Below are positions 701 through 18,028 of a stretch of DNA of 64,000 nt, piece by piece; the stretch's first letter is position 1, and each line of letters starts with the position of its first letter. The notes under the pieces are model-generated. The model was not told the origin of the DNA. It did no database searches and saw nothing but the letters and a program-made list of their open reading frames with translations. The position numbers and the translations under genes are program-made. The stretch covers positions 248,001 to 312,000 of the forward strand of contig NZ_QBKT01000003.1 of assembly GCF_003054265.1 (NCBI RefSeq), read 5' to 3'. This stretch comes from Kordia periserrulae (GTDB taxonomy: Bacteria; Bacteroidota; Bacteroidia; Flavobacteriales; Flavobacteriaceae).

Positions 701-1969
701 ATGGCAGCAGGATTTTTTAGAAAAGCAGCAGTTGAAAAACTCTCAACACCCGAAAAATTAGATCAGTTAATCAAAGTCACTAGCCCAAGAGGCTGGATAG
801 CATTGATAACGATTACACTCATTTTAGCAACTGGAATTATTTGGGCATTTTTTGGGAATGTAAAAACAAAGCTCAATGTCGTTGGTGTCCTATTGGGAGG
901 AGAAATTCATGAAGTAGTGGCAACTTCTCAAGGACAACTCATTAGTTTAAACGTCGCTATTGGCGATGTAGTCAACGAAGGCGATGTCATCGCAACGGTT
1001 GAGCAACCAGAATTATTTCAACAAATTGAAGAAGTAAAAGCGTCATTAGAAGAACGCAAATTTGATTTGCAACAATTGCTGTCGTTTGGAAATCAAGATA
1101 CGCGTTTGCAAAGCGAACTCATTCAGCAACAGCGTACCACAATCGTAATGCAAATTGAGTCTGAAAAGAAAAACTTAGAATTTCTACGAAATCAATTAGA
1201 CACCGAAAAAGGATTGTTGGCGCAAGGACTCATCACGCGTACGCAAGTAGTGAATACGGAGCAACAAATTGAAGCTTCTATCAATACGATAGAAAGTTTA
1301 AAAGGACAACAAGTACAAACATCGAGTCGAAAACTCAATCTCGGATTTGATTTGCAACAAAAAATAAACATGAGCAAACAGCGTATTGCAGAAACAGAAC
1401 GACAACTAAGCTATTTGCAAGAACGATACGATATCCAAACAAATATAAAAAGCGCATACACTGGCGAAGTCGTTGAATTGCTCACAGATGCAGGTGTGAT
1501 TGTGCGACAAGGAAGTCCGTTGTTCAAACTAAAAAATCAAAATCAACTGACGGCAGATACTAACAAACTACGCGGCGTCTTATACATTCCGTCACAAGAT
1601 GGTAAAAAAATCAAGGAAGGTATGGAAGCGCTTGTGGTTCCTTCAACAGTTCAGCCACAAGAATACGGTTTTATGAAAGGAAAAGTAACCTATGTATCGG
1701 ACTTTCCAATCACACAAAAAGGAATGATGATGACCGTTAAAAATGATCAATTAGTGCAAGGATTGTTGTCGCAAGGTGCCTTATTTGAAGTATATGTTGA
1801 ATTTGAAAAAGATGAAAACTCATACAGTGGTTTCAAATGGACATCTGCCAAAGGGCCAGAAATTGCCATCAATGAAGGAACTTCCTGTATGGGGAAAATT
1901 ACGGTAAAAAGTGAACCGCCAGCAGCAATTGTAGTACCTGCGTTGAAAAAATTCTTTGATCTCTATTAA
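701..1969 (+). CDS. NHLM-type HlyD family periplasmic adaptor
   Basis: A 422-residue membrane fusion protein. One N-terminal membrane helix lies at about residues 30-52, followed by a biotinyl/lipoyl-like beta segment, a coiled coil (~residues 110-250) and a second beta domain in which YTGEVVELL and the region around VRQGSPLF are typical. HlyD adaptors bridge an inner membrane ABC exporter and TolC. The order HlyD, C39-ABC, second ABC is that of the NHLM export systems (TIGR03794/03796/03797 families as I recall them). The ATG at 701 is followed immediately by a plausible cytoplasmic N-terminus. The 3' end is 13 bases before the next ATG at 1983, so the genes are probably co-transcribed. Confidence 0.9.
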   Translation: MAAGFFRKAAVEKLSTPEKLDQLIKVTSPRGWIALITITLILATGIIWAFFGNVKTKLNVVGVLLGGEIHEVVATSQGQLISLNVAIGDVVNEGDVIATVEQPELFQQIEEVKASLEERKFDLQQLLSFGNQDTRLQSELIQQQRTTIVMQIESEKKNLEFLRNQLDTEKGLLAQGLITRTQVVNTEQQIEASINTIESLKGQQVQTSSRKLNLGFDLQQKINMSKQRIAETERQLSYLQERYDIQTNIKSAYTGEVVELLTDAGVIVRQGSPLFKLKNQNQLTADTNKLRGVLYIPSQDGKKIKEGMEALVVPSTVQPQEYGFMKGKVTYVSDFPITQKGMMMTVKNDQLVQGLLSQGALFEVYVEFEKDENSYSGFKWTSAKGPEIAINEGTSCMGKITVKSEPPAAIVVPALKKFFDLY

Positions 1970-1982
1970 AAACCAACACACC

Positions 1983-4184: not shown

Positions 4185-7097
4185 ATGTCTGAAAATAAAA
4201 AAATAAGATTGGAAGCCAATCATTCGCTAATTCTTAGGGAACACGATCGTTTTTGGATGATTACATCTGGAGAAGTAGATGTTTTTTATGCAGACATTGA
4301 CGAAAATGGAGAATATGCGAGTGCATTGCGCTATCTGTACAGTGCTAAAGCAGGCGAATTGTTGTTCAGTTTAATTTCTTCTCAAGAAAACGAACAAAAC
4401 ATCAAGCTGCTGATTGTAAGCAAAGGCGCTTCGCTCATTTCAATCAACAAAAACAAACTGCTCGATGTAGACACCATTTTTCTCAAAAGCATGATAGAAA
4501 AATGGATTCTAAAAACTGCCTACAGAATACAGCAAGTAAACACTCCACGACTGTACACAGCGTTGAATCCTTCTGAAACAATTCCGTTAAAGCAAGACGC
4601 AATGGCTTTTCCAACCAAAGGATTGGCTTGGTGCACGGTTGTCAAAGGAAAAGCAAGCAAATACGCAGTAGATACGGAAATCAATACCGAAACTGAATTT
4701 AATTTTCCTTTTGCTGTATCGGGCAGTTTGTGGCTCAAATCGCAAAGTAAAGACTGCGAAATCAAAGTCATCAGTACACGACAAGCGTTCAAGGATGAAA
4801 TATTCTTCATGCTTTCGCTGAATGATTTACAAGACCATCTCTATCAAAAACTTATCAAAAACTACGAGCGTCTTATTGCGGAAGAGCAACAACGGATTGA
4901 AGAGAAAGTAACTTCGGAATCCGAGAATCTTACCAAAACACTTGATCAGCTCCGTACAATTGTTGTGGGGAAACAAGATAAAAAAGTAGTGGTATCGTTT
5001 GACGACCAAAAAATAAATAGCGACTTATTCACGACGTGTCAACTTATTGGAAACGAGATTGGTTTCAAGTTTGAAGCACCAAAATACATGGAATCGTACC
5101 AAAACAGTACGACCAACCAATTATACGCCATTGCGCAATCGTCAAAAGTACGTGTTCGAAAAATCATATTACGCGGTACATGGTGGAAAGAAGAAAACGG
5201 CCATTTGTTAGCATTTTACAAAGAAGACAAGCGTCCTGTAGCACTCATTCAAGATTCTTCTTATAGCTATCTTTTAAAAGATGTCACTACTGGAGAAGCC
5301 ATAAAAGTAAACCACGAAATTGCGGACCAGTTAGAACCTATCTGTTACATGTTTTTCTATGGTTTTGGCGAAATCATGACATCCATCAAAAAAATTGGAA
5401 ACTTTGCAGCACAAGGCATCAAAAAAGATGCAAAATATCTCTTACTGGCTGCCTTTGCGGGAAGTATCATCGGATTGCTAATTCCAATCTTATCAGGTGT
5501 CATGTTTGATGATGTCATTCCTTCGGCGGACAAATCCTTGCATTTTGAAATATTCGCCATCATGCTCATGTTAGGCTTGGTAACTGCAGGATTACAGTTG
5601 GTTCAAGGTGTGTTGCAACTGCGTGTTGAAACCAAATCGAGTATCAATTTGCAAGCAGGAGTCATGGATCATCTCTTGCGATTGCCAGTAACGTTCTACA
5701 AAAAATATTCTGCGGGTGATTTAACCAACAGAGCATTAAGTATCAACGGAATACGTCAAGTGCTTTCCAATACGGTGATGACAGCGGTATTGAGCGGTGC
5801 ATTTTCTTTTGTCAATCTAGTTTTACTCTTTTACTACGAACCAAGTTTAGCGTGGATTGGTGTCGGACTGGCAGTATTGGCGGTGATTTTTATGACGGTA
5901 ATTGGTTGGAAAAAACTAAAATACGATCGCCAAATATCAGATGTACAAGGAGATTTGCAAGGGTTTTTATTCGAATTCCTTTCGGGAATCACCAAAATAC
6001 GCATCACAGGTGGCGAAAAAAGAGTCTTTACCTTGTGGGCACAAAAATTTGCCAAACTCAAACAACTAGGATTCAGTTCTGGAAGCTATCAAAACTTTGT
6101 GGAAGTCTTTAACAGTTCCTATCCACTCTTCACCAGCATATTTTTCTTTGCGTTCATCTATTACACCGTAACCAATGCCGCAGTCGTAGGAACCATGATT
6201 TCTGTGGGAGCTTTTATGGCGTTTATCAGTGCGTTCAATCAATTTTTGACAGATTGTTTAAAAATGAGCATGGCGTTAATCACTTCGTTAAACATCATCA
6301 CGCTATACGAACGTGTAAAGCCAATTTTAGAGGAAATTCCAGAATCTTCCGAGCAAAGTACCGATCCAGGAGAACTCATTGGAGAAATTGAAATGAATGC
6401 AGTATCCTTCCGTTATCACGCAGAACAACCACTCATTCTAAAAGATGTTTCTTTCAAAATAAAACCGGGACAAATGGTGGCTTTCGTAGGAACTTCAGGT
6501 TCGGGGAAATCAACCATCATGCGCTTATTGCTAGGTTTTGAATCGCCAGAAGTTGGCTCAATCTACTATGACGGAGACGCGTACGATTCTATGAATAAAG
6601 ACTTGGTACGACGACAAATTGGTGTGGTATTGCAAAATGGTGCATTGATGTCGGGAAGTATTTATAAAAACATTGTTGGAAACTCCGAATTAACCCTAGA
6701 AGATGCTTGGGAAGCCGCACGAATGGCAGGCATGGAAGAAGACATCAAGCAAATGCCTATGGAAATGCATACGGTAATTAGCGAAGGTGCAGGAACATTT
6801 TCGGGCGGACAACGACAACGATTAATGATTGCACGTGCCATTGTTCACAAACCAAGATTGCTCTTTATGGACGAAGCAACAAGTGCTTTGGACAACAGAA
6901 CGCAAAACATTGTTTCGGAAAGTCTCGATAAATTACAAGCAACCCGAATCGTGATTGCGCACCGATTGAGTACGGTAAAAAATGCAGACTGTATTTACGT
7001 ACTAGACAAAGGAACCATTGTAGAATCAGGAACGTATGAAGAATTGATGGAGCAAAATGGAGTATTTACCAGTTTAGCCAAACGTCAAATCGCCTAA
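4185..7097 (+). CDS. NHLM second ABC exporter with cNMP-binding-like N-terminus
   Basis: A 970-residue protein with no C39 peptidase. Residues ~1-350 form a large cytoplasmic region; its start (WMITSGEVDVF, then GELLFSLIS) resembles the beta-roll of cyclic-nucleotide-binding or cupin-like domains, though I do not see the full phosphate-binding cassette. A helical coiled segment, six membrane helices (~410-700) and an ATPase follow, with Walker A GTSGSGKST (~769), signature FSGGQRQR, Walker B LLFMDEATSALD and AHRLST. This matches the NHLM 'ABC2' type that pairs with the C39-bearing transporter. It begins 6 bases after the upstream stop. The two ATPase subunits may form a heterodimer. A cNMP-like domain beside two nucleotide cyclase genes is notable. 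Confidence 0.92.
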   Translation: MSENKKIRLEANHSLILREHDRFWMITSGEVDVFYADIDENGEYASALRYLYSAKAGELLFSLISSQENEQNIKLLIVSKGASLISINKNKLLDVDTIFLKSMIEKWILKTAYRIQQVNTPRLYTALNPSETIPLKQDAMAFPTKGLAWCTVVKGKASKYAVDTEINTETEFNFPFAVSGSLWLKSQSKDCEIKVISTRQAFKDEIFFMLSLNDLQDHLYQKLIKNYERLIAEEQQRIEEKVTSESENLTKTLDQLRTIVVGKQDKKVVVSFDDQKINSDLFTTCQLIGNEIGFKFEAPKYMESYQNSTTNQLYAIAQSSKVRVRKIILRGTWWKEENGHLLAFYKEDKRPVALIQDSSYSYLLKDVTTGEAIKVNHEIADQLEPICYMFFYGFGEIMTSIKKIGNFAAQGIKKDAKYLLLAAFAGSIIGLLIPILSGVMFDDVIPSADKSLHFEIFAIMLMLGLVTAGLQLVQGVLQLRVETKSSINLQAGVMDHLLRLPVTFYKKYSAGDLTNRALSINGIRQVLSNTVMTAVLSGAFSFVNLVLLFYYEPSLAWIGVGLAVLAVIFMTVIGWKKLKYDRQISDVQGDLQGFLFEFLSGITKIRITGGEKRVFTLWAQKFAKLKQLGFSSGSYQNFVEVFNSSYPLFTSIFFFAFIYYTVTNAAVVGTMISVGAFMAFISAFNQFLTDCLKMSMALITSLNIITLYERVKPILEEIPESSEQSTDPGELIGEIEMNAVSFRYHAEQPLILKDVSFKIKPGQMVAFVGTSGSGKSTIMRLLLGFESPEVGSIYYDGDAYDSMNKDLVRRQIGVVLQNGALMSGSIYKNIVGNSELTLEDAWEAARMAGMEEDIKQMPMEMHTVISEGAGTFSGGQRQRLMIARAIVHKPRLLFMDEATSALDNRTQNIVSESLDKLQATRIVIAHRLSTVKNADCIYVLDKGTIVESGTYEELMEQNGVFTSLAKRQIA

Positions 7098-7106
7098 AGA
7101 AAACGA

Positions 7107-8294
7107 ATGAATGAGCAGGAAAAACATGAGTTTTTAGAGAAGATAGTTCATAGCAAAGAAGCTACTGAGCAACTATTATCGTATTGTGAAAACAAGTTTA
7201 TTCCAGCAAAAACAAAAGTAGCAACGCCTGATAGTTATTTAGAAACTTGGGAAGCGTATGTTGCGGAAGCTTCGGAAAAAGGGGTTATTTCAACACTCAA
7301 AAAATACATTCCGCAGTTGCAATTTCCAGTAGAAAAGAACATATCCAGTTCAGAAGTTTACAAAAATGCAACTTTACGTGGAAGAGTAGTGGAGAGCGAT
7401 AAAAAATTGCAACTAAGAAACCCAGAACGTATTGCATTAGAACTCTATAAAACACCATTGATAGGAAAAGTGCCTGTCATGACGGTTTCAAACAAAGACG
7501 ATTTTTATACAATTTGCTGTGCATTGGGAAACAAAAACGAGCCGAAAGAGTTGCCCAAATCTATGGGCGCTTTGTTCATCAACGGATTGAACAATTGGCA
7601 TCGTATTAAAAAATTACAAACTCAATGGCAAGCGCAGCATCCGTACGGGAATTGGAATGAGGAATTCAAAAAAAACATCCTACCAAATCCTCATCTGTAC
7701 AAAGACAAATTGATTGTATTGAGTATAAGCAATTATAGCAACGTATCGCATACCGTAGTTGGAAAAAGTGAAACAGATTGGCAAAAAATATCTGTTGCGA
7801 TTCGGAAAGAACATGAATGTGCGCATCTTTTTACGTTGCAACAATACGGAACCATGGCAAACAATATGCACGATGAACTCATTGCAGATTATGCAGGTAT
7901 TACAAAAGCGTTAGGTTACTATAACAAAGATTGGTTCTTGCAATTCATCGGATTGGAAAACTATCCAGCTTACAGAAAAGGTGGACGATTGGAAAATTAT
8001 CAAGAACCTGTGCAACTATCGACAGCTGCTTTGAAAGGATTGCAACATATTATAAAAAATGCCGCAACCGCAATTGAAAAATTTGATCATTCACTCGGTA
8101 ACAATACAACAGACGAAGAACGAATGCGCAGAATTCAAACACTTTGCGAAGTCGATTTGCTAACGATGGCTTCGGTAAAAGGCGAACAACAACTTATAGA
8201 AACATATAATACTAGTAGGATATCCCCGTATCATGGTAAAGAAAAGCGAAAAAATAATCACAGAAGTCAACGCTATTCTCCAACAAATCTCTGA
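7107..8294 (+). CDS. Putative gluzincin-like metallopeptidase in the NHLP locus
   Basis: A 395-residue protein without signal peptide or membrane helix. I do not recognise the family, but residues 236-240 are HECAH, a HExxH zinc motif. At residue 257 a DELIADYAG segment gives E-xxx-D, the spacing of the second motif of gluzincin proteases (third zinc ligand Glu plus a supporting Asp). This is motif evidence only. It starts 9 bases after the exporter gene, so it belongs to the same transcript. Its 3' end overlaps the next gene by 62 bases in another frame; the last ~20 residues are basic and low-complexity, so the C-terminus could be extended by an old frameshift. Possible roles are follow-up proteolysis of exported peptides or immunity; neither is shown. 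Confidence 0.7.
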   Translation: MNEQEKHEFLEKIVHSKEATEQLLSYCENKFIPAKTKVATPDSYLETWEAYVAEASEKGVISTLKKYIPQLQFPVEKNISSSEVYKNATLRGRVVESDKKLQLRNPERIALELYKTPLIGKVPVMTVSNKDDFYTICCALGNKNEPKELPKSMGALFINGLNNWHRIKKLQTQWQAQHPYGNWNEEFKKNILPNPHLYKDKLIVLSISNYSNVSHTVVGKSETDWQKISVAIRKEHECAHLFTLQQYGTMANNMHDELIADYAGITKALGYYNKDWFLQFIGLENYPAYRKGGRLENYQEPVQLSTAALKGLQHIIKNAATAIEKFDHSLGNNTTDEERMRRIQTLCEVDLLTMASVKGEQQLIETYNTSRISPYHGKEKRKNNHRSQRYSPTNL

Positions 8295-10377
8295 CACCGT
8301 ACAAGCCGAAAGAAGTACTTTTTTCTTGTACAACAAGCAAAACGCTACGCTAGAGAGTTTGGTAGCGCAAGGCGTAAAACACATCATCATCAGCGTTCCT
8401 GTTGGAAAAGGCGTGGTTGGAACGATGTTTCAACAGCAAAAAGTAATTGTTGAAAATAACGTGCAACAAAGTGCAATTTTTGATGCTTCGTATGATGCAC
8501 AATGGCACTTTGAAACAAAATCTACCGTATGTGTTCCCGTTGTCAATACTGATGGAAAACCGATTGGTGCCTTGCAATGTTTGAATAAAATTGACGGAAC
8601 ATTCATGGAAAATGATGTCAAAATTTTAGAGAGTTTTGCGTCGGCAATTGCGTTGATTGTTAAGAATAGCAAGCTGTATTTGGCAAGTGAGCACATCAAA
8701 AATAACTTTTCAACCTTATTGGAAGTTTTTAAAGCGGTTTCTTCAGAATTAAATCTAAACAAACTCATTCAAGTGGTGATGAACAAAGCGGCTGAAATCA
8801 CCAAAGCCGATCGCAGTTCGTTGTTTTTAGTAGATGAAACTACGGGCGAATTGTGGACCGTTTTCGCGAAAGGACTCAAAAATACAACCGTTCGCACCAA
8901 AAAAGGAATCGTGGCGCATGTTGCCAAAACCCAAGAACCACTTATAGTGAACAATCCGTACGAGCATCCGCTTTTCAATCCGGAAGTAGATAAAAAAACA
9001 AACTATCATACCAAATCAATTTTGAGCGTTCCTGTGTTTAATGCCAATAATAAAGTGTTGGGCGTGATTCAAGCGATTAATAAACGTGGAAATAATTTTA
9101 ATGAAGACGATTTGGACATTCTCAAAGGATTTGCCAGTCAAATACGTATCGCCATTGAAAATGCAAAACTTTTTGATCAGATTCAAGGAATGAAAAATCA
9201 CTTAAACATTTTGGTACAAAATCTTGATACAGGAATCGTCACGGTAAATCAACAATTACACATCAACACAGTGAATGAAACGTTTTACCGCATGTTCGGT
9301 GTGAAAAAAAACACAAAACTCACAAACAGATCCATCCAAAAAATTGTCAAAAGATTGCAGCCACTATTTTCGCATTGTGAAGAAACGATTGCTACAGGAA
9401 CGAAAAACTATCAGGAAGATTTAAAAATTAAAGTGACGCCTGAAAAAACGGTCACGGTCAATCTGAGTGTGTTGCCTATGCAAGATGCGAAAGAAAATAT
9501 CATTGGTGCGATTGTGGTTTTTAACGATGTTTCACAAGAAAAGCGCATTCAGTCAAATCTCAGTCGCTACATTCCGCAACATTTGGTAAAACAAGTGATG
9601 CATCACGATAACTTGTCACTTTTGCAAGGTAATTTTTCAAAGTGTAGCATTTTATTTTCAGACATTCGAAATTTTACAACACTTACGGAAGAATTTGGCG
9701 CCATTCAAATTGTAGCATTGCTCAACAATTATTTTGAGGCAATGCTGACTTCTGTTCATAAGTACAACGGAATTCTCGACAAATACATCGGCGACGCCAT
9801 TATGACGGTTTTCGGCGTGCCGTATGCAAATATTACCGATGCAAAAAATGCCGTGAATTGTGCGTTGGATATGTTTGAAAGTCTTGCCGATTTAAACAAA
9901 AAAAGCACCTCGTTGCCACAACTCAATATTGGTATCGGAATTAGTACAGGAAATGTAGTTTCAGGAAATATCGGTTCAGAAAAGCGCTTTGAATATACGG
10001 TAATTGGGGATTCTGTCAATCTTGCTGCGCGACTCGAAAGCGCTACCAAAACCTATAAAGTAGACATGCTTATCTGTGAAGAAACGTATAATGAAGTCAA
10101 AAATGATTTTCACTGTAGAGAAATCGATACTATGATGGTCAAAGGCAAATTAACGCCAGTGAAAATATTTTCAGTCATTGCTAAAAAAACGATTTCACTT
10201 AGCGATTCACAAAAAGAATTTCTTCAATACTACGCTAAAGGCTTACAAGAATACCGACGTAAAAATTATGAAAAGGCAAGCATTTATTTTGTTGATGCCA
10301 ATGACATTATACCGTCGGACGGACCTACCAAATTATTCTTAAAAAGATGTAGAAAGCACACACGTGTAGTACAGTAA
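8233..10377 (+). CDS. GAF-GAF-PAS-like class III adenylate/guanylate cyclase
   Basis: A 714-residue soluble signalling protein. Two GAF domains (~5-150 and ~165-315) are followed by a PAS-like domain (~320-435), a class III cyclase catalytic domain (~465-650) and a helical C-terminal tail. Metal-binding Asp477 (FSDIRNF) and Asp521 (YIGDAIM) are present, as are Lys517 and Thr589 at the purine-recognition positions and the transition-state pair Asn596/Arg600 (VNLAAR). A Lys/Thr pair is found in bacterial adenylate cyclases of the CyaC type, so cAMP is the likelier product. It overlaps the metallopeptidase gene by 62 bases, which suggests coupling. GAF domains may sense a small ligand or the product. 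Confidence 0.9.
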   Translation: MVKKSEKIITEVNAILQQISDTVQAERSTFFLYNKQNATLESLVAQGVKHIIISVPVGKGVVGTMFQQQKVIVENNVQQSAIFDASYDAQWHFETKSTVCVPVVNTDGKPIGALQCLNKIDGTFMENDVKILESFASAIALIVKNSKLYLASEHIKNNFSTLLEVFKAVSSELNLNKLIQVVMNKAAEITKADRSSLFLVDETTGELWTVFAKGLKNTTVRTKKGIVAHVAKTQEPLIVNNPYEHPLFNPEVDKKTNYHTKSILSVPVFNANNKVLGVIQAINKRGNNFNEDDLDILKGFASQIRIAIENAKLFDQIQGMKNHLNILVQNLDTGIVTVNQQLHINTVNETFYRMFGVKKNTKLTNRSIQKIVKRLQPLFSHCEETIATGTKNYQEDLKIKVTPEKTVTVNLSVLPMQDAKENIIGAIVVFNDVSQEKRIQSNLSRYIPQHLVKQVMHHDNLSLLQGNFSKCSILFSDIRNFTTLTEEFGAIQIVALLNNYFEAMLTSVHKYNGILDKYIGDAIMTVFGVPYANITDAKNAVNCALDMFESLADLNKKSTSLPQLNIGIGISTGNVVSGNIGSEKRFEYTVIGDSVNLAARLESATKTYKVDMLICEETYNEVKNDFHCREIDTMMVKGKLTPVKIFSVIAKKTISLSDSQKEFLQYYAKGLQEYRRKNYEKASIYFVDANDIIPSDGPTKLFLKRCRKHTRVVQ

Positions 10378-10501: not shown

Positions 10502-10831
10502 ATGGAACTAACGAAAGAACAAAAATTATTTCAGACAATCGTTCTCAAAGCTTGGGAAGATGCTGCTTTTATGCAGGAACTTACCTCAAATCCTTTGGAC
10601 GCGATTGAGAAACTAACAGGAACGCGTTTAAACATTCCAGCAGGGAAAAAGTTTGTAGTGCGCGATCAAACGGATGCTTCTTCTATTTATATCAACATTC
10701 CAACAGAGAAATCAATGGACGATATGGAGCTAACAGAAGAGCAACTTGAAATTGTAGCTGGTGGCGGTTCTTTGCCAGGCGCTGTAATTCAAGATTCTGC
10801 CGATTCATTAAACGGATTGACAGATGGATAA
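10502..10831 (+). CDS. NHLP-leader RiPP precursor 1 (polar, Ser/Thr core)
   Basis: A 109-residue precursor. Residues 1-88 are a nitrile hydratase alpha-like leader (ELTKEQKLFQTIVLKAW start, FVVRDQT, YINIP, then MELTEEQLEIVAGG). The double Gly at 87-88 is the expected C39 cleavage site. The core of ~21 residues (from G89) is acidic and polar with Ser90, Ser99, Ser102 and Thr107 and no Cys. Such leaders guide modifying enzymes and the NHLM exporter. The core is quite unlike those of precursors 3-5 although the leader is shared, so the locus uses one leader system for different products. Confidence 0.92.
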   Translation: MELTKEQKLFQTIVLKAWEDAAFMQELTSNPLDAIEKLTGTRLNIPAGKKFVVRDQTDASSIYINIPTEKSMDDMELTEEQLEIVAGGGSLPGAVIQDSADSLNGLTDG

Positions 10832-10846
10832 AAAGATATAGGGATA

Positions 10847-12814
10847 ATGAAATTGGTTAAAAAAAAATATTCCTTTGGAAAAGAGAAGCGTACTTGGTTC
10901 ATGTTTCTCTTTTTCGTTTTTATGTCAAGCGTGCAATTTGGACAAGAAGTTGCACAAGCTAACTCATTACAACTAAAAGCAGATAGCCTGTTTCAACTCA
11001 GTAAGCAACAAGTTAAAAAACGTGATTTTCAAAAAGCAATGGAAGCGGTAGAAGAAAGTCTTGCCATTTTTGAAAATTTACAAAACAACAAATCCATTGC
11101 CGATTGCTACAATCAAATTGCGACGATTTATTATTATCAAGGCGAATTTGCCAAAGCATTGACCTATTTCGAAAATAGCAGAGAATATTTTGAAAAAGCG
11201 GGTTTTACAAAAGGGATTGCTTCTTCCACCAACAACAAAGGCGCGATTTATTACTACTTAGGAAATTTTCCAAAAGCGCTCGATCATTATAAAAGAGCGA
11301 TGAAATTGCATGAAGAAATGCAAAATGAAGCGCAAGTTGCAGGAACTACACAAAATATCGGAAACATTTACATGCAACTCAATGATTTTGAAAATGCCAA
11401 AATACATTTTGAAATTGCAGAAAACATCTACCAAAAAACCAATGATGAAAAAGCACTTTCTTTAGTATTGAGCAGTATTGGAAGCATTTACAAAAAAAAA
11501 CAAAACTACGAAGCTGCTTTTCAAAACTTTGAAACCGCACTAGCACTTTCCATCAAAACCAATCAAAACCAAACACAGGCAGAAGTGCTGTACAATTTGG
11601 GGAAACTATATGAAGCAAAAGGCGATTTGCAAGAATCACTTCGCAATTATAACAAATCGTTGGAAATTTCAAGACAAGCAAAAAGTAGTCTGCACGAAAG
11701 TTCCGCATTGATTGCGTTGGGATTTGTAAAGCAAAAACTCGGCAACAAAAGAGAAGCAATTAACAATTGTGAGCAAGGATTCAACATCGCCAAAGAAATT
11801 GATGTCATTTCCATTCAAGAAGAAGCTTGCAAATGTTTGTACGATGCGTATAAGTTAACGAACAATCCCGCGAAAGCGCTTATATATAATGAACAAATGT
11901 ACGCTTTGCGCGACAGTTTGAACTTAAAGCAAACTTCTGACAAAATTTTGAATATGGAATTTGAGAAAGAAATGTTGTTGGACAGTATTGCGAATGTTGA
12001 AAAGGAGCGTATTCTCAAACTAAAACACAAAGAAGAGGTTGCCAAAAAGGAAAAACAGCGTAACATTTTTATCATTGCGGTTTGTTTTGCGGTCATCATT
12101 GCGCTTGCCATTTTTGGAAGATTGAGCTATATGAAAAAATCGAAAGCGCGATTGCAAGTAGAGAAAGACCGTTCGGAGCATTTACTGCACAACATACTTC
12201 CAATAGAAGTTGCGGACGAATTGAAAGAAAAAGGATATGTAGACGCGCAAGACTTTGAAACGGCGTCCATATTATTTACCGATTTCAAATCGTTCACCGA
12301 AACCGCTTCACATTTAACACCACAAGAACTGGTAGAAGAAATCAATGTGTGTTTCAAAGCATTTGATGCCATCATTGAAAAACACCGCATAGAAAAAATC
12401 AAAACTATTGGAGACGCGTACATGGCTGCTGGCGGTTTGCCAAAACCAGACGCAAATGCAGTAAAAAATATCATTTTGGCGTCGTTGGAGATGCAACAAT
12501 TTGTAGAGAAAAGAAAACGCGAAAACGAAGCAAGAAACAAACCTGCTTTTGAAATGCGCGTCGGAATTCATGTAGGACCTATTGTGGCAGGAATCGTAGG
12601 TGTGAAAAAATTTCAATACGATGTTTGGGGCGATACGGTCAATATTGCAAGTCGTATGGAAAGCAATGGCGCAGTGGGCAAAGTCAATATCAGTCACCAT
12701 ACCTACGAATTGGTGAAAAATGAAGCCGATTTATCCTTTGAATATCGCGGAAAAATAACGGCGAAAGGCAAAGGAGAACTAAAAATGTACTTCGTTTCCA
12801 AGAGAAATACCTAA
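10847..12814 (+). CDS. TPR-repeat, membrane-anchored class III adenylate cyclase
   Basis: A 655-residue protein. An N-terminal signal or anchor segment (~15-33) is followed by about seven tetratricopeptide repeats (~45-355, probably periplasmic), a coiled linker, a membrane helix (~405-426) and a C-terminal cyclase domain (~465-652). Metal-binding Asp479 (FTDFKSF) and Asp523 (TIGDAYM) are present, with purine-selecting Lys519 and Asp592 (the adenylate cyclase pair) and catalytic Asn599/Arg603. The layout suggests a receptor that senses protein partners outside the membrane and makes cAMP inside. It lies between precursor genes 1 and 2, 15 bases after the first. This is a second cyclase in the same cluster, with a different sensor architecture. 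Confidence 0.9.
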   Translation: MKLVKKKYSFGKEKRTWFMFLFFVFMSSVQFGQEVAQANSLQLKADSLFQLSKQQVKKRDFQKAMEAVEESLAIFENLQNNKSIADCYNQIATIYYYQGEFAKALTYFENSREYFEKAGFTKGIASSTNNKGAIYYYLGNFPKALDHYKRAMKLHEEMQNEAQVAGTTQNIGNIYMQLNDFENAKIHFEIAENIYQKTNDEKALSLVLSSIGSIYKKKQNYEAAFQNFETALALSIKTNQNQTQAEVLYNLGKLYEAKGDLQESLRNYNKSLEISRQAKSSLHESSALIALGFVKQKLGNKREAINNCEQGFNIAKEIDVISIQEEACKCLYDAYKLTNNPAKALIYNEQMYALRDSLNLKQTSDKILNMEFEKEMLLDSIANVEKERILKLKHKEEVAKKEKQRNIFIIAVCFAVIIALAIFGRLSYMKKSKARLQVEKDRSEHLLHNILPIEVADELKEKGYVDAQDFETASILFTDFKSFTETASHLTPQELVEEINVCFKAFDAIIEKHRIEKIKTIGDAYMAAGGLPKPDANAVKNIILASLEMQQFVEKRKRENEARNKPAFEMRVGIHVGPIVAGIVGVKKFQYDVWGDTVNIASRMESNGAVGKVNISHHTYELVKNEADLSFEYRGKITAKGKGELKMYFVSKRNT

Positions 12815-12900
12815 GAAACAGTTTTGACGGAATTTTTGTCGTTTTTATAGAAAAACATACTAATATATTTACACTATAAATAAAGAGTAAGAAACAAAAA
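12812..12900 (+). repeat. Promoter-like repeat, copy 1
   Basis: An ~88-base unit that starts exactly at the stop codon of the TPR-cyclase gene and recurs at 12982-13069 with about eight differences. It opens with TAAGAAACAGTTTTGACGG and ends in an A-rich stretch. It contains a -7-like TATATTTA. A 15-codon reading frame (12907-12954) follows; I see no homology in it. Confidence 0.8.
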
Positions 12901-12981
12901 ATAGAAATGAAAAGCTTACAAACGTTCACTGTAAATCTTAAGAATTATAAATAAAATAATTCACGCCTAAGATGAATTTGT

Positions 12982-13069
12982 AAGAAACAGTTTTGACGGA
13001 ATTTTTGTCGTTTTTGTAGAAAAAGATACGAATATCTTTACACTGTAAACAAAGAATAAGAAATAAAAG
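12982..13069 (+). repeat. Promoter-like repeat, copy 2, upstream of NHLP precursor 2
   Basis: The second copy of the ~88-base unit ends 7 bases before the ATG of precursor 2. A TTG followed 16 bases later by TATCTTTA fits the Bacteroidota promoter pattern, so this is probably the promoter and 5' leader of the precursor 2 transcript. The direct duplication may give two start points or be the scar of a tandem duplication that removed a precursor gene between the copies. Confidence 0.7.
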
Positions 13070-13076
13070 TAGCCAT

Positions 13077-13433
13077 ATGAAACCTACAAGTTCTCAACAG
13101 AAATCTCAAGAATTATTAGAAAAAATAATTCACAAAGCATGGAGCGATGATGCGTTTAAAGCGGCACTTATTGCAAATCCACTAGATGCTATTGAAAAGG
13201 CAACTGGAGAACGTGTACAACTTCCAGAAGGGAAGACATTAATAGTAAGAGATCAGACCTCGCAAGAAAAGATTTATGTAAATATTCCTGCAGAGCCAAA
13301 TATGGAAGATATGGAATTGTCTGAAGAGCAATTGGAAGTAGTTGCGGGAGGTGGAATTATATGGCCAGCATACGTAATGTTACCCATATTACCAACACCA
13401 ACAAATCCAAGTAAAGACGGACGTATAAGTTAA
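13077..13433 (+). CDS. NHLP-leader RiPP precursor 2 (Pro/Thr-rich core)
   Basis: A 118-residue precursor with the same leader family (KIIHKAW, ANPLDAIEKATG, LIVRDQT, YVNIPAEP, LSEEQLEVVAGG). The double Gly is at 91-92. The 26-residue core from G93 begins with hydrophobic residues including Trp96 and Tyr99, then carries a Pro/Thr stretch (Thr107, Thr109, Ser112, Ser118) and a basic end. There is no Cys in the core. It follows the duplicated promoter-like repeat. The Thr/Ser residues are candidate dehydration or glycosylation sites for the enzymes at 15064-17805. Confidence 0.92.
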   Translation: MKPTSSQQKSQELLEKIIHKAWSDDAFKAALIANPLDAIEKATGERVQLPEGKTLIVRDQTSQEKIYVNIPAEPNMEDMELSEEQLEVVAGGGIIWPAYVMLPILPTPTNPSKDGRIS

Positions 13434-13498
13434 ACAAACCAATCAATTTTTAATATTCATAATCAAATCTTTAATATAAACTTTTAAAAACAAGCAAA

Positions 13499-13843
13499 AT
13501 GGAATTTACAAAACAACAACAAGAAGGACAAGAGTTAATGAACACATTAATCGCTAAAGCTTGGGAGAACCCAGAATTCAAGCAACAATTAATTAGCAAT
13601 CCTCAAGCTGCTATTGAGCAAGTTACAGGTAAAAAATTAAACTTAAAAGGTTCACAGCACATCGTTGTAGAAGACCAAACAGATCCTAACACAATTTACT
13701 TAAACATTCCAAGACAAGTTGATGTTTCTGAATTAGAATTGTCTGACGAGCAATTAGAAATGGTTGCAGGTGGAGTTGCGCCAATCGTAATCTACGGAGG
13801 AATTTTCTTAGTAGGAGTAATCGCTGGAGCATTAGCTGAGTAA
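13499..13843 (+). CDS. NHLP-leader RiPP precursor 3 (hydrophobic core without Ser/Thr/Cys)
   Basis: A 114-residue precursor with the leader ending LSDEQLEMVAGG (Gly91-Gly92). The 22-residue core from V93 is hydrophobic and Gly/Ala-rich (APIVIYGG, then VGVIAGALAE) and looks like a membrane-spanning helix. It has no Ser, Thr or Cys, so a dehydratase cannot act on it; Tyr99 is the only hydroxyl residue. It may work unmodified, perhaps with the related peptides 4 and 5. The strong bias to TTA, GCT and CAA codons fits high expression. Confidence 0.92.
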   Translation: MEFTKQQQEGQELMNTLIAKAWENPEFKQQLISNPQAAIEQVTGKKLNLKGSQHIVVEDQTDPNTIYLNIPRQVDVSELELSDEQLEMVAGGVAPIVIYGGIFLVGVIAGALAE

Positions 13844-13863
13844 TCACAAACAACACAAAAACC

Positions 13864-13889
13864 GTTGAGCACATTTAGGGAAACTCAAC
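13864..13889 (+). other. Hairpin between precursors 3 and 4
   Basis: GTTGAG (13864-13869) and CTCAAC (13884-13889) form a six-pair stem with a 14-base loop. No T run follows, so it is more likely an mRNA-stability or processing element than a terminator. Weak evidence. Confidence 0.3.
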
Positions 13890-13938
13890 AAGTATCAAAC
13901 TATTAAATAAAATACAAACCAATTAAAACTTTTTTACG

Positions 13939-14286
13939 ATGGAATTAACTAAAAAACAAGAAGCAGCACAAAATATCATGACAAGTGTAATCGCTAAGTG
14001 CTGGGAAGATGCAGAATTCAAAAAAGCATTAATCGCTGATCCTGTAGCGACATTAGAGAAATTTACAGGAAACGAAATCAACTTACCAGAAGGAAAAAGA
14101 ATCGTTGTTAGAGATCAGAGTGCTGATTCAAACGTAATCTACTTCAACATTCCTGCGGAGCCAAACTTAGACGAATTAGAATTATCTGATGAGCAATTAG
14201 AATTAGTAGCTGGTGGAGCTACGCCTGTAGCAACATACTTCTTAGTATTAGCTGCTGGAGTTGCTGTAGGAAGCACACTTTTCTAA
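13939..14286 (+). CDS. NHLP-leader RiPP precursor 4 (hydrophobic core)
   Basis: A 115-residue precursor, near-identical in its leader to precursor 5. The leader ends LSDEQLELVAGG (Gly92-Gly93). The 22-residue core from A94 is hydrophobic with Thr95, Thr99, Ser112 and Thr113 and no Cys; a Cys at residue 21 is in the leader only. The Ala/Gly/Val run in the middle resembles a membrane helix. Four hydroxyl residues are possible dehydration sites. Confidence 0.93.
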   Translation: MELTKKQEAAQNIMTSVIAKCWEDAEFKKALIADPVATLEKFTGNEINLPEGKRIVVRDQSADSNVIYFNIPAEPNLDELELSDEQLELVAGGATPVATYFLVLAAGVAVGSTLF

Positions 14287-14318
14287 GAAATAATTCGAAT
14301 CAGATAAATAGATAAACG

Positions 14319-14666
14319 ATGGAATTAACTAAAAAACAAGAAGCTGCACAGCAAATCATGAGAAGCGTGATTGCAAAGTGTTGGGAAGACGAAGCTTTTA
14401 AGCAAGCTTTAATCGCTGATCCTGTAGCAACGTTGGAGAAGTTTACAGGAAACGAAATCAATCTTCCAGAAGGAAAAAGATTAGTGGTAAGAGATCAAAG
14501 TTCAGAAGCTAATGCGATTTACTTCAACATTCCTGCTGAGCCAAACTTAGAAGAGTTGCAGCTATCTGATGAACAATTAGAGTTAGTAGCTGGTGGAGTA
14601 ACACCTGTAGCAGCATACTTTACAGTGTTAGCCGCTGGAGTAGCTGTAGGAGCAATACTTTTCTAA
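14319..14666 (+). CDS. NHLP-leader RiPP precursor 5 (hydrophobic core, paralogue of 4)
   Basis: A 115-residue precursor, a recent tandem copy of precursor 4. The first ~16 codons are almost the same and the core from V94 shares the VLAAGVAVG segment. Thr95 and Thr102 are the only hydroxyl residues besides Tyr100, and there is no Cys in the core. It lies 32 bases after precursor 4 and 41 bases before a strong terminator, so it ends the precursor transcript. Confidence 0.93.
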   Translation: MELTKKQEAAQQIMRSVIAKCWEDEAFKQALIADPVATLEKFTGNEINLPEGKRLVVRDQSSEANAIYFNIPAEPNLEELQLSDEQLELVAGGVTPVAAYFTVLAAGVAVGAILF

Positions 14667-14707
14667 ACATGTGAATCAGATACTTCGTAATACATTTATA
14701 TATGTTT

Positions 14708-14751
14708 GCTCCCTTGAGATTAGGTTTTCCGCTTGAGGGAGCTCATTTTTT
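14708..14751 (+). terminator. Rho-independent terminator after precursor 5
   Basis: GCTCCCTTGAG (14708-14718) pairs with CTTGAGGGAGC (14732-14742) over 11 positions including two G-U pairs, followed by TCATTTTTT. It closes the precursor transcript and overlaps any upstream start proposed for the next small gene. Confidence 0.88.
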
Positions 14752-14770
14752 AACTAAAAAAATAATCAAA

Positions 14771-14932
14771 ATGGATAAATTGAGTAGTTTAAATTGGATA
14801 GGAATTTGTGTTCTTTTTTTAGGTATTGTAGCCTTTATGCTTGGAAAACAAGAAAAATACACTACGCTTACAGTAGTGCTTTGTATAGTAGGCGTTATTT
14901 TATTTATTATGGGATTTTACGTAAAAAAATAA
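14771..14932 (+). CDS. Small two-helix membrane protein (53 residues)
   Basis: The start at ATG 14771 gives 53 residues with two membrane helices (~9-27 and ~33-50) joined by a short Lys/Glu/Thr loop and ending in Lys-Lys. An in-frame ATG at 14702 would put the N-terminus inside the terminator hairpin and is rejected. Its place between the precursor terminator and the modifying enzymes, with its own terminator at 14952, suggests a separate short transcript. Small two-helix proteins are common as bacteriocin immunity proteins, which is a guess from context. I do not recognise the family. Confidence 0.7.
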   Translation: MDKLSSLNWIGICVLFLGIVAFMLGKQEKYTTLTVVLCIVGVILFIMGFYVKK

Positions 14933-14951
14933 TCCTTTCACATTATAAATG

Positions 14952-14983
14952 ATTCCCAAAATGTTTTGGGAATTTGTTGTTAT
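14952..14983 (+). terminator. Rho-independent terminator after small membrane protein
   Basis: ATTCCCAAAA (14952-14961) and TTTTGGGAAT (14964-14973) form a perfect ten-pair stem around TG, followed by TTGTTGTTATT. The following 80 bases before the glycosyltransferase must therefore hold a promoter; I found no clear match. Confidence 0.8.
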
Positions 14984-15063
14984 TACTTGCGAATCAACAT
15001 AAATCATGAGTTCTGCAAACGTAAAAGCATCAAGTCTATTCAAAAAATAATACCAACATCACC

Positions 15064-16248
15064 ATGAAAAAAGCTGTTTTACTATTTTGCGATAACGATA
15101 TCAGTCACAATATTCCCATGCTTGGCATTGCCAAAACGCTTCAAAGCAAAGGACATCGTGTGGTATTTTGTGGAAGTAACGAAAATCATTCTTTTTTTCA
15201 GAAACAACCTTATACATACATGGCTTCGGAAATATTTGACTTGGAAAAGCAAAATGTAGTCAATACGGTCGATTTAGGTTTTTTTGATACCAAAACGCTT
15301 CAAGGAATTGCAAAAGGGCAATTAGATAGCATCATGCAAGACGTACAACCAGACATGATATTATTCTCATACTACATATCGTACTTGTTGCCATTCTTCA
15401 AGAAAAAATATAACGAAATCAAGTACTGCTGCGTCAATATTTTAATGCGCGGTGAATTATTCACACCAAAGTTTTTATACAATTTTCATTACGAAACTGC
15501 GAGTAGCGATATACAAACCCTCGTTAAAAGCATACTACACACACCAGAAAAAGACATGGAAACAGTGATTGATGAAACCTATCAAGATTTTAAAGAATTT
15601 ATTCTCTGTCCAAAAGAAATGGACATTGACGCCAAGTACCAACAGCAAAATGTAGAATATTCGGAAGCCATTATTGGTGGGAATGATTTGAGTGAGGAAA
15701 TTCCGGAAAAGAATAATGTTATTCTATTCTCCATGGGTTCATATAGCAAGCAATTTCCTTTGGTGATTAATAAAATTGTGGAAAAAGTGATTGCCTGTAG
15801 CAAGTTGTTACGCGAGAAAGATGCTTCGTATAAATTTATACTGTCCATTCCCGATGGTGTATTGACAAACGATTTGATGCAAGCTTGTGCAGATGAAAAT
15901 ATCAACTTGGTCAGCTGGTTCGATCAAAACAAACTTTTATATAGTTCTAAATTGATGATTACCCATGGAGGAATAGGTTCTATCAAAGAATGCATTTATG
16001 CACAAACACCGATGTTGTGTTTTCCGCTTACGCGCGATCAACCTTACAATACCAAACGAATTGAAAGTTTAGGTTTGGGGAAAAAGCTGCACCCTTTAGA
16101 ATCGGATGTGGACGAAATTTTCTCAGCGTTGACCGATTTACTAGAAAATGACAGCTATCAAACCAATTTGAATACGTTTCGAAACATATTCAACGACTAT
16201 CGAGAAAAAGAAACGTTATACAATCAACTCATGGCAGTTGCGGGATAA
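15064..16248 (+). CDS. GT1/MGT-like glycosyltransferase
   Basis: A 394-residue GT-B fold glycosyltransferase of the UGT/macrolide type. The N-terminal half starts with an FCDNDISHNIPMLGIA strand-helix and the C-terminal half has the nucleotide-sugar site, with HGGIGSIKE at 301-309 and PLTRDQPYN downstream (the D-Q pair of this family). Enzymes of this type add a sugar to a hydroxyl of small molecules. It ends 18 bases before the dehydratase gene and so is co-transcribed with it; the likely acceptors are Ser/Thr/Tyr of the NHLP cores. The sugar cannot be told from sequence. Confidence 0.87.
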   Translation: MKKAVLLFCDNDISHNIPMLGIAKTLQSKGHRVVFCGSNENHSFFQKQPYTYMASEIFDLEKQNVVNTVDLGFFDTKTLQGIAKGQLDSIMQDVQPDMILFSYYISYLLPFFKKKYNEIKYCCVNILMRGELFTPKFLYNFHYETASSDIQTLVKSILHTPEKDMETVIDETYQDFKEFILCPKEMDIDAKYQQQNVEYSEAIIGGNDLSEEIPEKNNVILFSMGSYSKQFPLVINKIVEKVIACSKLLREKDASYKFILSIPDGVLTNDLMQACADENINLVSWFDQNKLLYSSKLMITHGGIGSIKECIYAQTPMLCFPLTRDQPYNTKRIESLGLGKKLHPLESDVDEIFSALTDLLENDSYQTNLNTFRNIFNDYREKETLYNQLMAVAG

Positions 16249-16266
16249 GCAAACACAGTTCATAGC

Positions 16267-17805
16267 ATGCAAACAACACCACATACACCACATGCAGATT
16301 TTTTTGATTTGACAACAGTGAAGGCGCTTGTGAGTCAAAATAGTGTGTTGAAAAACAAGCTATTACACGAGTTGAATCGTTTTATGTATGTTCAAAATGA
16401 GCGAATTTTGTATGATTGTTTTGATAAATACAAAGCGCAACACACGCATGCTAAATTTTCAACATTTGTTACCGATTTTCCGCATACGCGCGAAACGATT
16501 ATTAAAGAAAATTATCCGCATGCCAATACACTTCTCACACGTCAAGAAACAAAACTAGAAGCCTTTGTAGCTACATTATTGTCACAATTTGCCGTAGACA
16601 AAAAAGCATTGTACAACGCAAAAATACTTTCTGAGTCAACTGCACGCGTTTCCAACATCAATATCGGTTTGGGCGATTTTCATCATGGAAAATCAACCAC
16701 AATTGTGGAAATTGATAAGCAACAAAAAATTGTCTACAAGCCTAGTAATGGCGAAGTTACAACGGCATATCACGCGTTTCTAAAGTGGATTAGTGAATAT
16801 TTAGATATGGGTGATTTTGGGTATAAAACATACAACAAAGGCAGTTATCATTGGCAAGAATTTGTGACTTACGAATCGCTAAAATCGTCTGACGAAATCG
16901 CTAAATATTACCACAGAGCGGGAATTCTATTAGCAGTAACCTATGTGTTAAATGCTTCTGATTTTCATTATGAAAACTTGATTGTTCACAATGCGACGCC
17001 TATTTTGATAGATCACGAAACCATCATTCAACCAAAAATATACGACAACTTAAAAAAGTTCTTTAAGGCATTTGACAAAGAAACCGAGCAAGACACCGTG
17101 TTGAGCAGTTTGTTATTACCTAATCAAGGAAATGACAAAGGTTTTCCTGTCGGCATGTGCGGGTTTGGGTGTTCAAAAGAAACGCATTTGGAAGGTTTCA
17201 AAAAAATGAGCATTCATGAATTTACTAACGATTGGAAAATTGTCACCAAAATGACCAAACAGGATTTTATTAAAAATAACGTGCCTGAATATCGAGGTGA
17301 AAAGCAATTTGTAGATAAATATGCGAAAGAATTGCTACAAGGTTTTGAAGCCTGTTATCAGCTCTTTATGACGCATCGCGATTTTCTACTGTTTGATAAA
17401 AAAACACCCATAAAGCATTTTGAAGCGAAAACCCTTCGTTTTATTTGGCGACCGACCAATGTATATGTGAAAATTTTAGAATACATGAAATTGCCTAAAA
17501 ATTTAACGGATAAAAAAAACTATGCTAAAAAAATTGAAGAATATTTATCGGTAGCGTTTAAAAATGTACCAGAAGACTCTGAATTGCATCTCATTCTCAA
17601 AAGTGAAATTCACCAAATGTTACAAGGCGATGTTCCATACTTTGAAATTGATGCTTCCTCACGCGATTTAAAAACTGAATTTGGCGTACTACAAAACTTC
17701 TTTGAATTCAGTTGTGTAGAAAACTTAGAAAGAAAATTACAAAAGCTCTCTACAGAAGACTTAGCACATCAAAAAAAACTGATTTTACAAAGCATAGCAT
17801 TATAA
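16267..17805 (+). CDS. Stand-alone LanM-type lanthipeptide dehydratase domain (DUF4135), no cyclase
   Basis: A 512-residue protein matching only the dehydratase half of class II lanthipeptide synthetases (LanM, usually ~900-1000 residues). The kinase-like phosphorylation site is intact: GDFHHGK (136-142), Lys158 in VYKPSNG, D232-H234-N237 in SDFHYEN and D249-H-E251. The elimination motif RPTxxY (395-400) and the conserved GDVPYF (454-459) are also present. The protein stops where the LanC-like cyclase should begin, and no zinc Cys-Cys-His set is seen. It should phosphorylate and eliminate Ser/Thr to dehydro-residues without forming thioether rings. This fits the Cys-free cores. No separate LanC gene lies in the window. 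Confidence 0.92.
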
Positions 17806-17921: not shown

Positions 17922-17954
17922 GTAAATAGTCACTTAGAGTCTATTTTATCTTCG

Positions 17955-18028
17955 TAGCGAGATCGGGAATTGAACCCGAGACCTCCGGGTTATGAATCCG
18001 ACGCTCTAACCAACTGAGCTACCTCGCC
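17955..18028 (-). tRNA. tRNA-Met (CAT anticodon)
   Basis: A 74-base cloverleaf on the minus strand. The acceptor stem GGCGAGG pairs with TCTCGCT with two G-U pairs. The D arm is GCTC/GAGC, the anticodon loop is TTCATAA with CAT, and the T arm is TCGGG-TTCAATT-CCCGA. CCA is not encoded. The acceptor lacks the 1-72 mismatch of initiator tRNA, so an elongator Met tRNA is likely; a CAT anticodon modified to lysidine (Ile) cannot be excluded from sequence alone. Confidence 0.93.

Follow-up and report, generated by a model that had tools for sequence, protein, structure and literature searches.

The locus analysed here raises the question of whether a LanM-type enzyme without a cyclase can serve a peptide secretion cluster, and of what it would make of the peptides. 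It lies in a 64,000-nucleotide stretch of Kordia periserrulae (contig NZ_QBKT01000003.1, positions 248,001 to 312,000), called the window hereafter, to which all positions refer unless a related stretch is named; related stretches, genomes and contigs carry our handles L, G and C. The gene in question, at 16267-17805 on the + strand, is an open reading frame (ORF) of 512 amino acids, and five precursors with NHLP leaders lie upstream of it. An earlier note on this DNA had read the protein as a LanM dehydratase ending where the cyclase should begin, and had predicted ringless peptides containing dehydroalanine (Dha) or dehydrobutyrine (Dhb), perhaps glycosylated and exported by an NHLM system.

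A dehydratase-only LanM protein and its relatives

Pfam DUF4135 matches residues 83-461 of the 512-residue protein (E 2.5e-80), and the NCBIfam LanM model TIGR03897 passes its cut-off with only profile positions 50-519 of 932 matched. The LanC-like cyclase domain PF05147 was not found in the protein by Pfam, a C-terminal cyclase with its zinc ligands being absent. The alignment spans LicM2 146-572 and CylM 239-611, so that the protein ends approximately at the end of the CylM dehydratase, whose helix runs to Pro624 according to the available text of PMC4550811. In the same text, the residues for phosphorylation in CylM are K274, D347, H349, N352 and D364 (K274A and H349A retained slight activity), and those for elimination are D252, H254, R506 and T512. 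By alignment with CylM, their counterparts are K158, D232, H234, N237 and D249, and D137, H139, R391 and T397, respectively, and none of the nine varies among the 31 aligned proteins, of which the window protein is one. One of the defining traits of LanM, a DUF4135 dehydratase with its catalytic residues, is therefore present. An AlphaFold2 model (31-sequence input) reached a pLDDT of 89.5 and a pTM of 0.91, with a terminal helix at 496-511, and a Foldseek search with it returned LicM2 (E 3e-22, TMq 0.74) and CylM (E 5.6e-19, TMq 0.72) as the only matches with E <= 0.001. The comparison with the CylM structure, proposed in the earlier note as a check, thus bore out the missing domain. Given the extent of the profile matches, the invariant residues, the model and the Foldseek result, together with the trees described below, the protein is, as judged from sequence and model, a complete stand-alone LanM dehydratase (kinase plus phosphate lyase) without a cyclase domain.

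The solved LanMs have 979 and 993 residues, nearly twice as many, and a truncated remnant or an assembly artefact concealing a cyclase had to be considered, a frameshift of this kind having been named beforehand as fatal to the prediction. A scan of the GTDB species genomes, seeded with a first alignment of dehydratase-only proteins, produced 42 loci, of which 31 belong to Bacteroidota (Flavobacteriaceae, Weeksellaceae, Hymenobacteraceae, Cytophagaceae/Spirosomataceae and Saprospiraceae). In 30 of these 31 there is one intact dehydratase-only gene of 475-653 residues; the gene of L046, omitted from the alignment, the trees and the pair counts, is split over two ORFs. The other 11 loci have full LanM-size frames (at least 941 residues) or, in L064 and L070, run off the contig. 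No LanC match was detected in the fetched stretches of the 31 Bacteroidota loci, nor any LanC-like match on the window's own contig in a whole-genome search. Because 30 intact Bacteroidota relatives end at the same boundary with an invariant active site, the 512-residue protein is not an assembly error; the frameshift was rejected, and a remnant or artefact is, in our estimation, next to impossible.

In a first tree a single branch (99/93) sets apart the dehydratase-only proteins, 36 rows, and the same separation (100/99) was obtained in a second one, in which 31 rows, without the near-copies L041, L051, L054, L056 and L060, were set against eight full LanMs, Bacteroidota LanMs among them. Exceptions to this grouping could emerge with broader sampling, because dehydratase-only proteins seeded the scan and the branches of the full LanMs are long. 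Judged from these sequences, the cyclase-free design is that of a Bacteroidota group and not an accident. Its nearest named member is Kordia sp. TARA_039_SRF (L034), with an enzyme 91% identical to that of the window. DUF4135 proteins of any kind were found in 9 of 395 genomes of an even sample of Bacteroidota, and the dehydratase in 20 of the 25 distinct genomes with an NHLM_ABC1 match, collected in three overlapping NHLM_ABC1 scans (11/296, 9/398 and 10/173). NHLP precursors are present in 29 of the 31 enzyme-bearing Bacteroidota stretches; the exporter genes are not visible at every related locus because some contigs are short.

Two further proteins were observed in this search. L033 (8153-10411, genome G211) encodes 752 residues with a DUF4135-related domain behind an N-terminal stretch, which we take to resemble the DUF4157-type start of contractile-injection cargo. 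L032 (8685-10076, genome G049) encodes a second, divergent DUF4135 protein of 463 residues, with DACGAN replacing DFHYEN, adjoining a 93-residue NHLP-like ORF.

Precursor cores and the candidate site of dehydration

The five precursors, all on the + strand and all above the cut-off of the NHLP leader model TIGR03793, are A1 (10502..10831, core GSLPGAVIQDSADSLNGLTDG), A2 (13077..13433, GIIWPAYVMLPILPTPTNPSKDGRIS), A3 (13499..13843, VAPIVIYGGIFLVGVIAGALAE), A4 (13939..14286, ATPVATYFLVLAAGVAVGSTLF) and A5 (14319..14666, VTPVAAYFTVLAAGVAVGAILF). The A3 core has a GxxxG motif and no Ser, Thr or Cys, and this precursor also passes the class IIb bacteriocin model TIGR03949. As had been reported for the five cores, none carries a Cys after the GG, and neither does that of a sixth precursor around 2 kb upstream of the window (TIGR03793 50.0 bits, just under the 50.9 cut-off), in such a way that the Cys expected of a lanthipeptide core is missing.

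The further claim that the enzyme and the Cys-free cores agree with each other did not survive a survey of 225 cores from 39 loci (35 with the enzyme and 4 without, near-copies included; a core was recognised in all but 11 of 236 precursors). Cys occurs in 89 of the 225 cores, 136 being Cys-free, so that five Cys-free cores in a row are expected in about 8% of cases by chance. At least one Cys core is found in 35 of the 39 loci, L034 itself included, and 4 are wholly Cys-free; Cys-free cores plus a missing cyclase are therefore not a family trait, and their use as evidence of co-evolution was rejected, Cys cores being frequent among relatives with the same enzyme. Besides, A3 cannot be dehydrated, because its core has no Ser or Thr, a situation shared by 13 of the 225 cores.

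The comparison with L034 separates the remaining precursors. In that locus A1 has lost two of its four Ser/Thr and A2 all four, its counterpart core having none; A3 lacks Ser/Thr in both loci, and the A4 and A5 cores are identical. The earlier interpretation is supported in part, in that the enzyme is cyclase-free and conserved. Since the Bacteroidota relatives have the same cyclase-free design, dehydrated, ring-free secreted peptides are probable.

Core classes recur among the loci: TPPIIVK-like cores before the gene for a TPR-cyclase, GQ.VW.DL..LFP cores after it, Pro-rich cores and, often, a hydrophobic last pair. GxxxG is a hallmark of class IIb two-peptide bacteriocins, and it is present in 41 of 55 unique hydrophobic cores, versus a mean of 18.9 in shuffled ones; the sequence traits of this class (hydrophobic GxxxG core, GG leader and paired genes) are all found. 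Tandem precursors with identical cores (3, 3 and 2 copies) were also seen upstream of the dehydratase gene in L042, L052 and L096.

We propose a modular NHLP/NHLM secretion cluster whose tailoring slot varies between loci and is occupied here by a stand-alone class II dehydratase. This enzyme would phosphorylate and then eliminate a side chain in A4 and A5, most likely that of Thr2 in the x-Thr-Pro start of both cores, giving x-Dhb-Pro, and no thioether ring would form. After removal of the leader by the C39 peptidase of NHLM_ABC1, which would cut at GG, NHLM and TolC would together export hydrophobic, GxxxG-bearing, ring-free peptides resembling two-peptide class IIb bacteriocins, A1-A3 being non-substrates or only incidentally modified. 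An active dehydratase without enzymatic ring closure, at whatever site, we consider likely; for the complete route, from Dhb at Thr2 of A4/A5 without ring closure to cleavage at GG and export of a two-peptide-like product, the scales are evenly balanced. The genes, the residues, the predicted fold, the grouping, the synteny, the lack of LanC in 12 of 19 relatives' genomes and the co-occurrence of [ST]P with the enzyme are observed directly; that the enzyme is active, where it acts, what it yields, a role as bacteriocin and any glycosylation are what we infer from them.

The choice of Thr2 comes from arrays with and without the enzyme. Among loci with a hydrophobic last pair, 15 of the 19 that have the enzyme show x-[Thr/Ser]-Pro, with [ST]P at core positions 2-3, as against none of the 8 syntenic ones that lack it (28/38 versus 0/16 peptides). 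The last pair of the enzyme-less L088 starts with VLP/ILP, and those of the enzyme-bearing L049 and L058 with ITP/ITP; L088 retains the Thr motifs PTPTFP and TPPIIVK in other precursors. Outside this table are 16 enzyme-positive loci and the enzyme-negative L091, whose last cores are not both hydrophobic. The pair counts do not include L037, L050 and L104. They also leave out L047, which has a precursor downstream of its enzyme gene and two hydrophobic cores, neither with [ST]P. Likewise, the AraC-adjacent precursors and a short L029 core were ignored when the last two cores of a locus were taken. Three enzyme-negative loci belonged to the first analysis, their lack of enzyme being checked genome-wide, and five from two genera were added later, with [ST]P at 2-3 in 0 of 10 peptides and a Ser/Thr within positions 1-3 in 1 of 10.

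These same arrays bear on another explanation, in which the enzyme is only a kinase or acts on another substrate and the arrays encode two-peptide bacteriocins that are left unmodified. In the fetched stretches, the enzyme is missing from nine syntenic arrays (L088, L089, L091, L097, L134, L136 and L138-L140; absence of DUF4135 holds genome-wide for the first four), the Ser/Thr of A1 and A2 are not conserved, and the match of A3 to the class IIb model points in the same direction. Against this, the counterparts of the elimination residues are invariant in the 31 sequences, the [ST]P motif tracks the enzyme, and precursors accompany the enzyme in nearly all the stretches, as noted above, so that we regard this explanation as unlikely. 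Candidate enzyme remnants were looked for in L087, L088, L089, L091 and L097, and none was convincing.

Ring closure, partners and the tailoring slot

Several observations weigh against a Thr2-directed, ringless pathway. The Fisher test on loci for [ST]P versus enzyme gives 2.2e-4 with kinship ignored, several LTP loci being near-copies, and among the 19 loci that combine the enzyme with a hydrophobic pair, 4 lack [ST]P. In the five later negatives the absence of the enzyme refers to fetched stretches of 20 kb (34-40 kb for two). A Ser/Thr anywhere in core positions 1-5, which had separated 36 of 38 peptides from 0 of 6 in the first set (34/36 versus 0/6 before one locus was added), failed as a mark of the enzyme, being present in 7 of the 10 later negative peptides. 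Of the 35 loci with the enzyme, 16 lack a fully hydrophobic last pair, and 12 of these 16 have Ser/Thr plus Cys in both last cores (for instance KEAALAVESCYFLSC, QFNLEILWTGICIGWGN and KTVPIGSCQFLSCFG); such Ser/Cys-rich cores, partly in genomes free of LanC, are not explained by a pure ringless Dhb picture. Finally, the excised dehydratase of CcaM is inactive without its cyclase domain, according to the accessible part of PMC10676384, and the K. periserrulae genome does contain LanC proteins.

The search for LANC_like domains covered 19 genomes with the enzyme and 4 lacking it, G796 being left out. No LanC-like domain was found in 12 of the 19, among them the single-contig genomes G402, G065, G277 and G733. 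K. periserrulae is one of the other 7, with three stand-alone proteins (L015:8855-11177, L016:9559-13939 and L017:8119-10843), each having the WC.G and CHG zinc motif: one on contig C10 beside a HopA1-type gene, one on C7 beside split LanB genes, at a locus that is presumably pinensin-like, and one on C1 near a transglutaminase-like gene. Contig C2 of the same genome encodes LanM of 957-975 residues with replaced zinc ligands (WSHG, SLSAGD). This full-length LanM (L014:7984-10857) was also seen to adjoin a 64-residue ORF (7716-7910) that ends in a Cys-containing core-like stretch.

A LanC elsewhere, acting on these peptides with an external thiol, had been named in advance as an observation that would overturn the prediction, and the three genes give this objection weight in a weak sense, set against the 12 LanC-free genomes. 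Dha or Dhb could be captured later by a thiol, through a stand-alone LanC in trans, through glutathione or, in relatives, non-enzymatically by a core Cys. In addition to the three zinc-motif proteins, this would account for the Ser/Thr and Cys paired in the last cores of the 12 loci mentioned, as in QFNLEILWTGICIGWGN, KGVEISWSFICVTW and SCQFLSC. Nevertheless, some of the LanC-free genomes also have Ser/Cys cores (G733, G402 and G303), the window cores have no Cys, two of the three LanCs adjoin LanB halves or a HopA1-type gene, and L062 has Ser in the place of the Cys of the WT.IC type (WTSISFGDG). Taken together, thiol capture appears improbable.

The slot that follows the hydrophobic pair varies among loci: it holds the enzyme, the enzyme plus a glycosyltransferase (GT), the enzyme plus JmjC_2 (L029), JmjC_2 without the enzyme (L097, L136 and L139), two proteins of a recurrent family of 39x residues (L088), or no adjacent co-directional enzyme gene (L134). 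In the window it includes a GT1-like (UDPGT/MGT) gene at 15064..16248 (+), above the cut-off for PF00201 (E 1.8e-17) and below that of TIGR01426. The GT had been placed in the same transcript as the LanM gene, and their spacing of 18 bp agrees with this, against a 131-bp gap upstream of the GT with a terminator-like hairpin (14951-14974); such hairpins are barely above chance in the region, with 9 found versus 5.3 expected. Because close homologues occur in only 2 of 31 related stretches (L034 and L035; a weak one in L061), glycosylation of the peptides is plausible but optional, an extra outside the core pathway. A 76-residue ORF (14702..14932, +), membrane-protein-like by sequence and without Pfam matches above cut-off, accompanies the GT in the window locus, L034 and L035.

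The 39x-residue family, possibly GT-B-like, was seen at other loci. Its comparison with the window GT by hhalign gave no significant homology, and as the sole EryCIII-like_C match among the members given to Pfam falls below the curated cut-off, the GT label is tentative for this family. The JmjC_2 oxygenase-like gene near the hydrophobic pair suggests peptide hydroxylation as a possible alternative. In L104 (genome G768) the dehydratase is accompanied by a full LanB (1010 residues) and by a gene product weakly matching EryCIII-like_C.

The recurrence of GT-like or JmjC_2 genes beside the enzyme or in its place fits with an enzyme that is inactive alone and depends on a prior modification or on another protein (GT, JmjC-type oxygenase or accessory protein), as the CcaM half would imply. 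In contrast, no partner is common to the enzyme-bearing loci among the annotated neighbourhoods, which cover part of the loci and genes, and the excised dehydratase domains of CylM, HalM2 and NukM are stated to be active in the same accessible part of PMC10676384. The need for a partner is accordingly given a low probability.

Cluster organization and comparison with known systems

All the cluster genes, from the 3' part of the TolC gene to 17805, are on the + strand. The TolC-type outer membrane protein (OEP Pfam match) is present from position 6, its gene starting upstream, and is followed by NHLM HlyD (701-1969), the peptidase-ABC exporter NHLM_ABC1 (1956-4178) and NHLM_ABC2 (4185-7097), the three above NCBIfam cut-offs, so the predicted NHLM system, an exporter of the NHLP/NHLM (proteusin) type, is indeed encoded. 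Next comes a DUF7005 protein (7107..8294, PF22541) with an HExxH motif conserved in the 11 DUF7005 proteins inspected from NHLM loci, the window's counted, a possible metalloprotease. A GAF-GAF-PAS-adenylate/guanylate cyclase (8233..10377; PF00211, GAF, PAS), also encoded in several Kordia/Aquimarina/Tenacibaculum-type loci, precedes A1, and a TPR-adenylate/guanylate cyclase (10847..12814; PF00211 E 3.7e-57) lies in its usual place between the first precursor and the others, being present in 25 of 31 related stretches. The DNA immediately preceding the window encodes an AraC-type regulator, the sixth precursor and a cyclic-nucleotide-binding protein. Together with the two cyclase-domain proteins, a binding protein of this type (L013:12579-13097; L027:3468-3989) suggests control of peptide export linked to cyclic AMP or cyclic GMP. 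Directly 3' of the enzyme gene, a tRNA-Met gene (17954-18028, -) was observed, at which the cluster may have integrated; a tRNA scan of seven related stretches was negative. No YcaO, as expected in a dehydrazole pathway, was detected among the cluster ORFs given to Pfam, and no radical SAM enzyme among those annotated.

A wider generalization is more doubtful than the route proposed for the window: that a Bacteroidota class II clade shed its cyclase and now converts only the second core residue, to Dhb/Dha, in helical, GxxxG-paired secreted peptides, which would form a class of ringless, dehydrated two-peptide bacteriocins made from an exchangeable slot (LanM dehydratase, JmjC oxygenase or glycosyltransferase) on a cyclic-nucleotide-linked NHLM chassis.

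No cyclase-free LanM of this kind was found in the open-access PMC literature searched, as far as its accessible text goes. There, PMC10301443 describes a different case, LanM-like proteins without parts of the dehydratase and the zinc motif; PMC10105419 mentions archaeal "truncated LanMs" with no detail in the passage available; and the genome-mining rule in the corresponding part of PMC7268733 labels any DUF4135 cluster as class II lanthipeptide. Rules of this type would mislabel dehydratase-only clusters. If the proposal is true, the LanM dehydratase would be used naturally as a free-standing enzyme, making dehydroamino acids without rings in several Bacteroidota families, and could be a small tool for Dhb/Dha installation, the arrays with and without enzyme being a natural experiment that predicts the modified residue.

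Compared with the LanMs LicM2 (6st5) and CylM (5dzt), the window enzyme shares the DUF4135 dehydratase fold and the nine residues of CylM catalysis. It differs from them in lacking the LanC-like domain and the zinc site, and in being around 470-480 residues shorter. Proteusins, such as landornamide and polytheonamide, are ribosomally synthesized and post-translationally modified peptides with NHLP leaders; the window cluster resembles them in its NHLP leader and NHLM exporter, and differs in its cyclase-free LanM and in having no radical SAM among the annotated ORFs. Both compounds are named in the available text of PMC10734526, where a "proteusin-like" Kordia cluster, which may be that of the window, is also pictured.

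The nearest published case in the literature searched is CcaM/carnazolamide, in which, as described in the accessible part of PMC10676384, an NHLP precursor and a DUF4135 enzyme from Flavobacteriia yield dehydroamino acids, Dha, without lanthionines, a combination of host, leader and enzyme family that the window shares. In contrast to the window enzyme, CcaM has a fused zinc-independent cyclase domain that is essential to activity, and it acts after YcaO on azoles in a leader-independent manner, YcaO being absent among the annotated ORFs of the window cluster. With class IIb bacteriocins (TIGR03949), the window peptides share the GG leader, the hydrophobic GxxxG core and the adjacent pair, and they are set apart by the NHLP leader, NHLM export, the Bacteroidota host and the predicted Dhb2.

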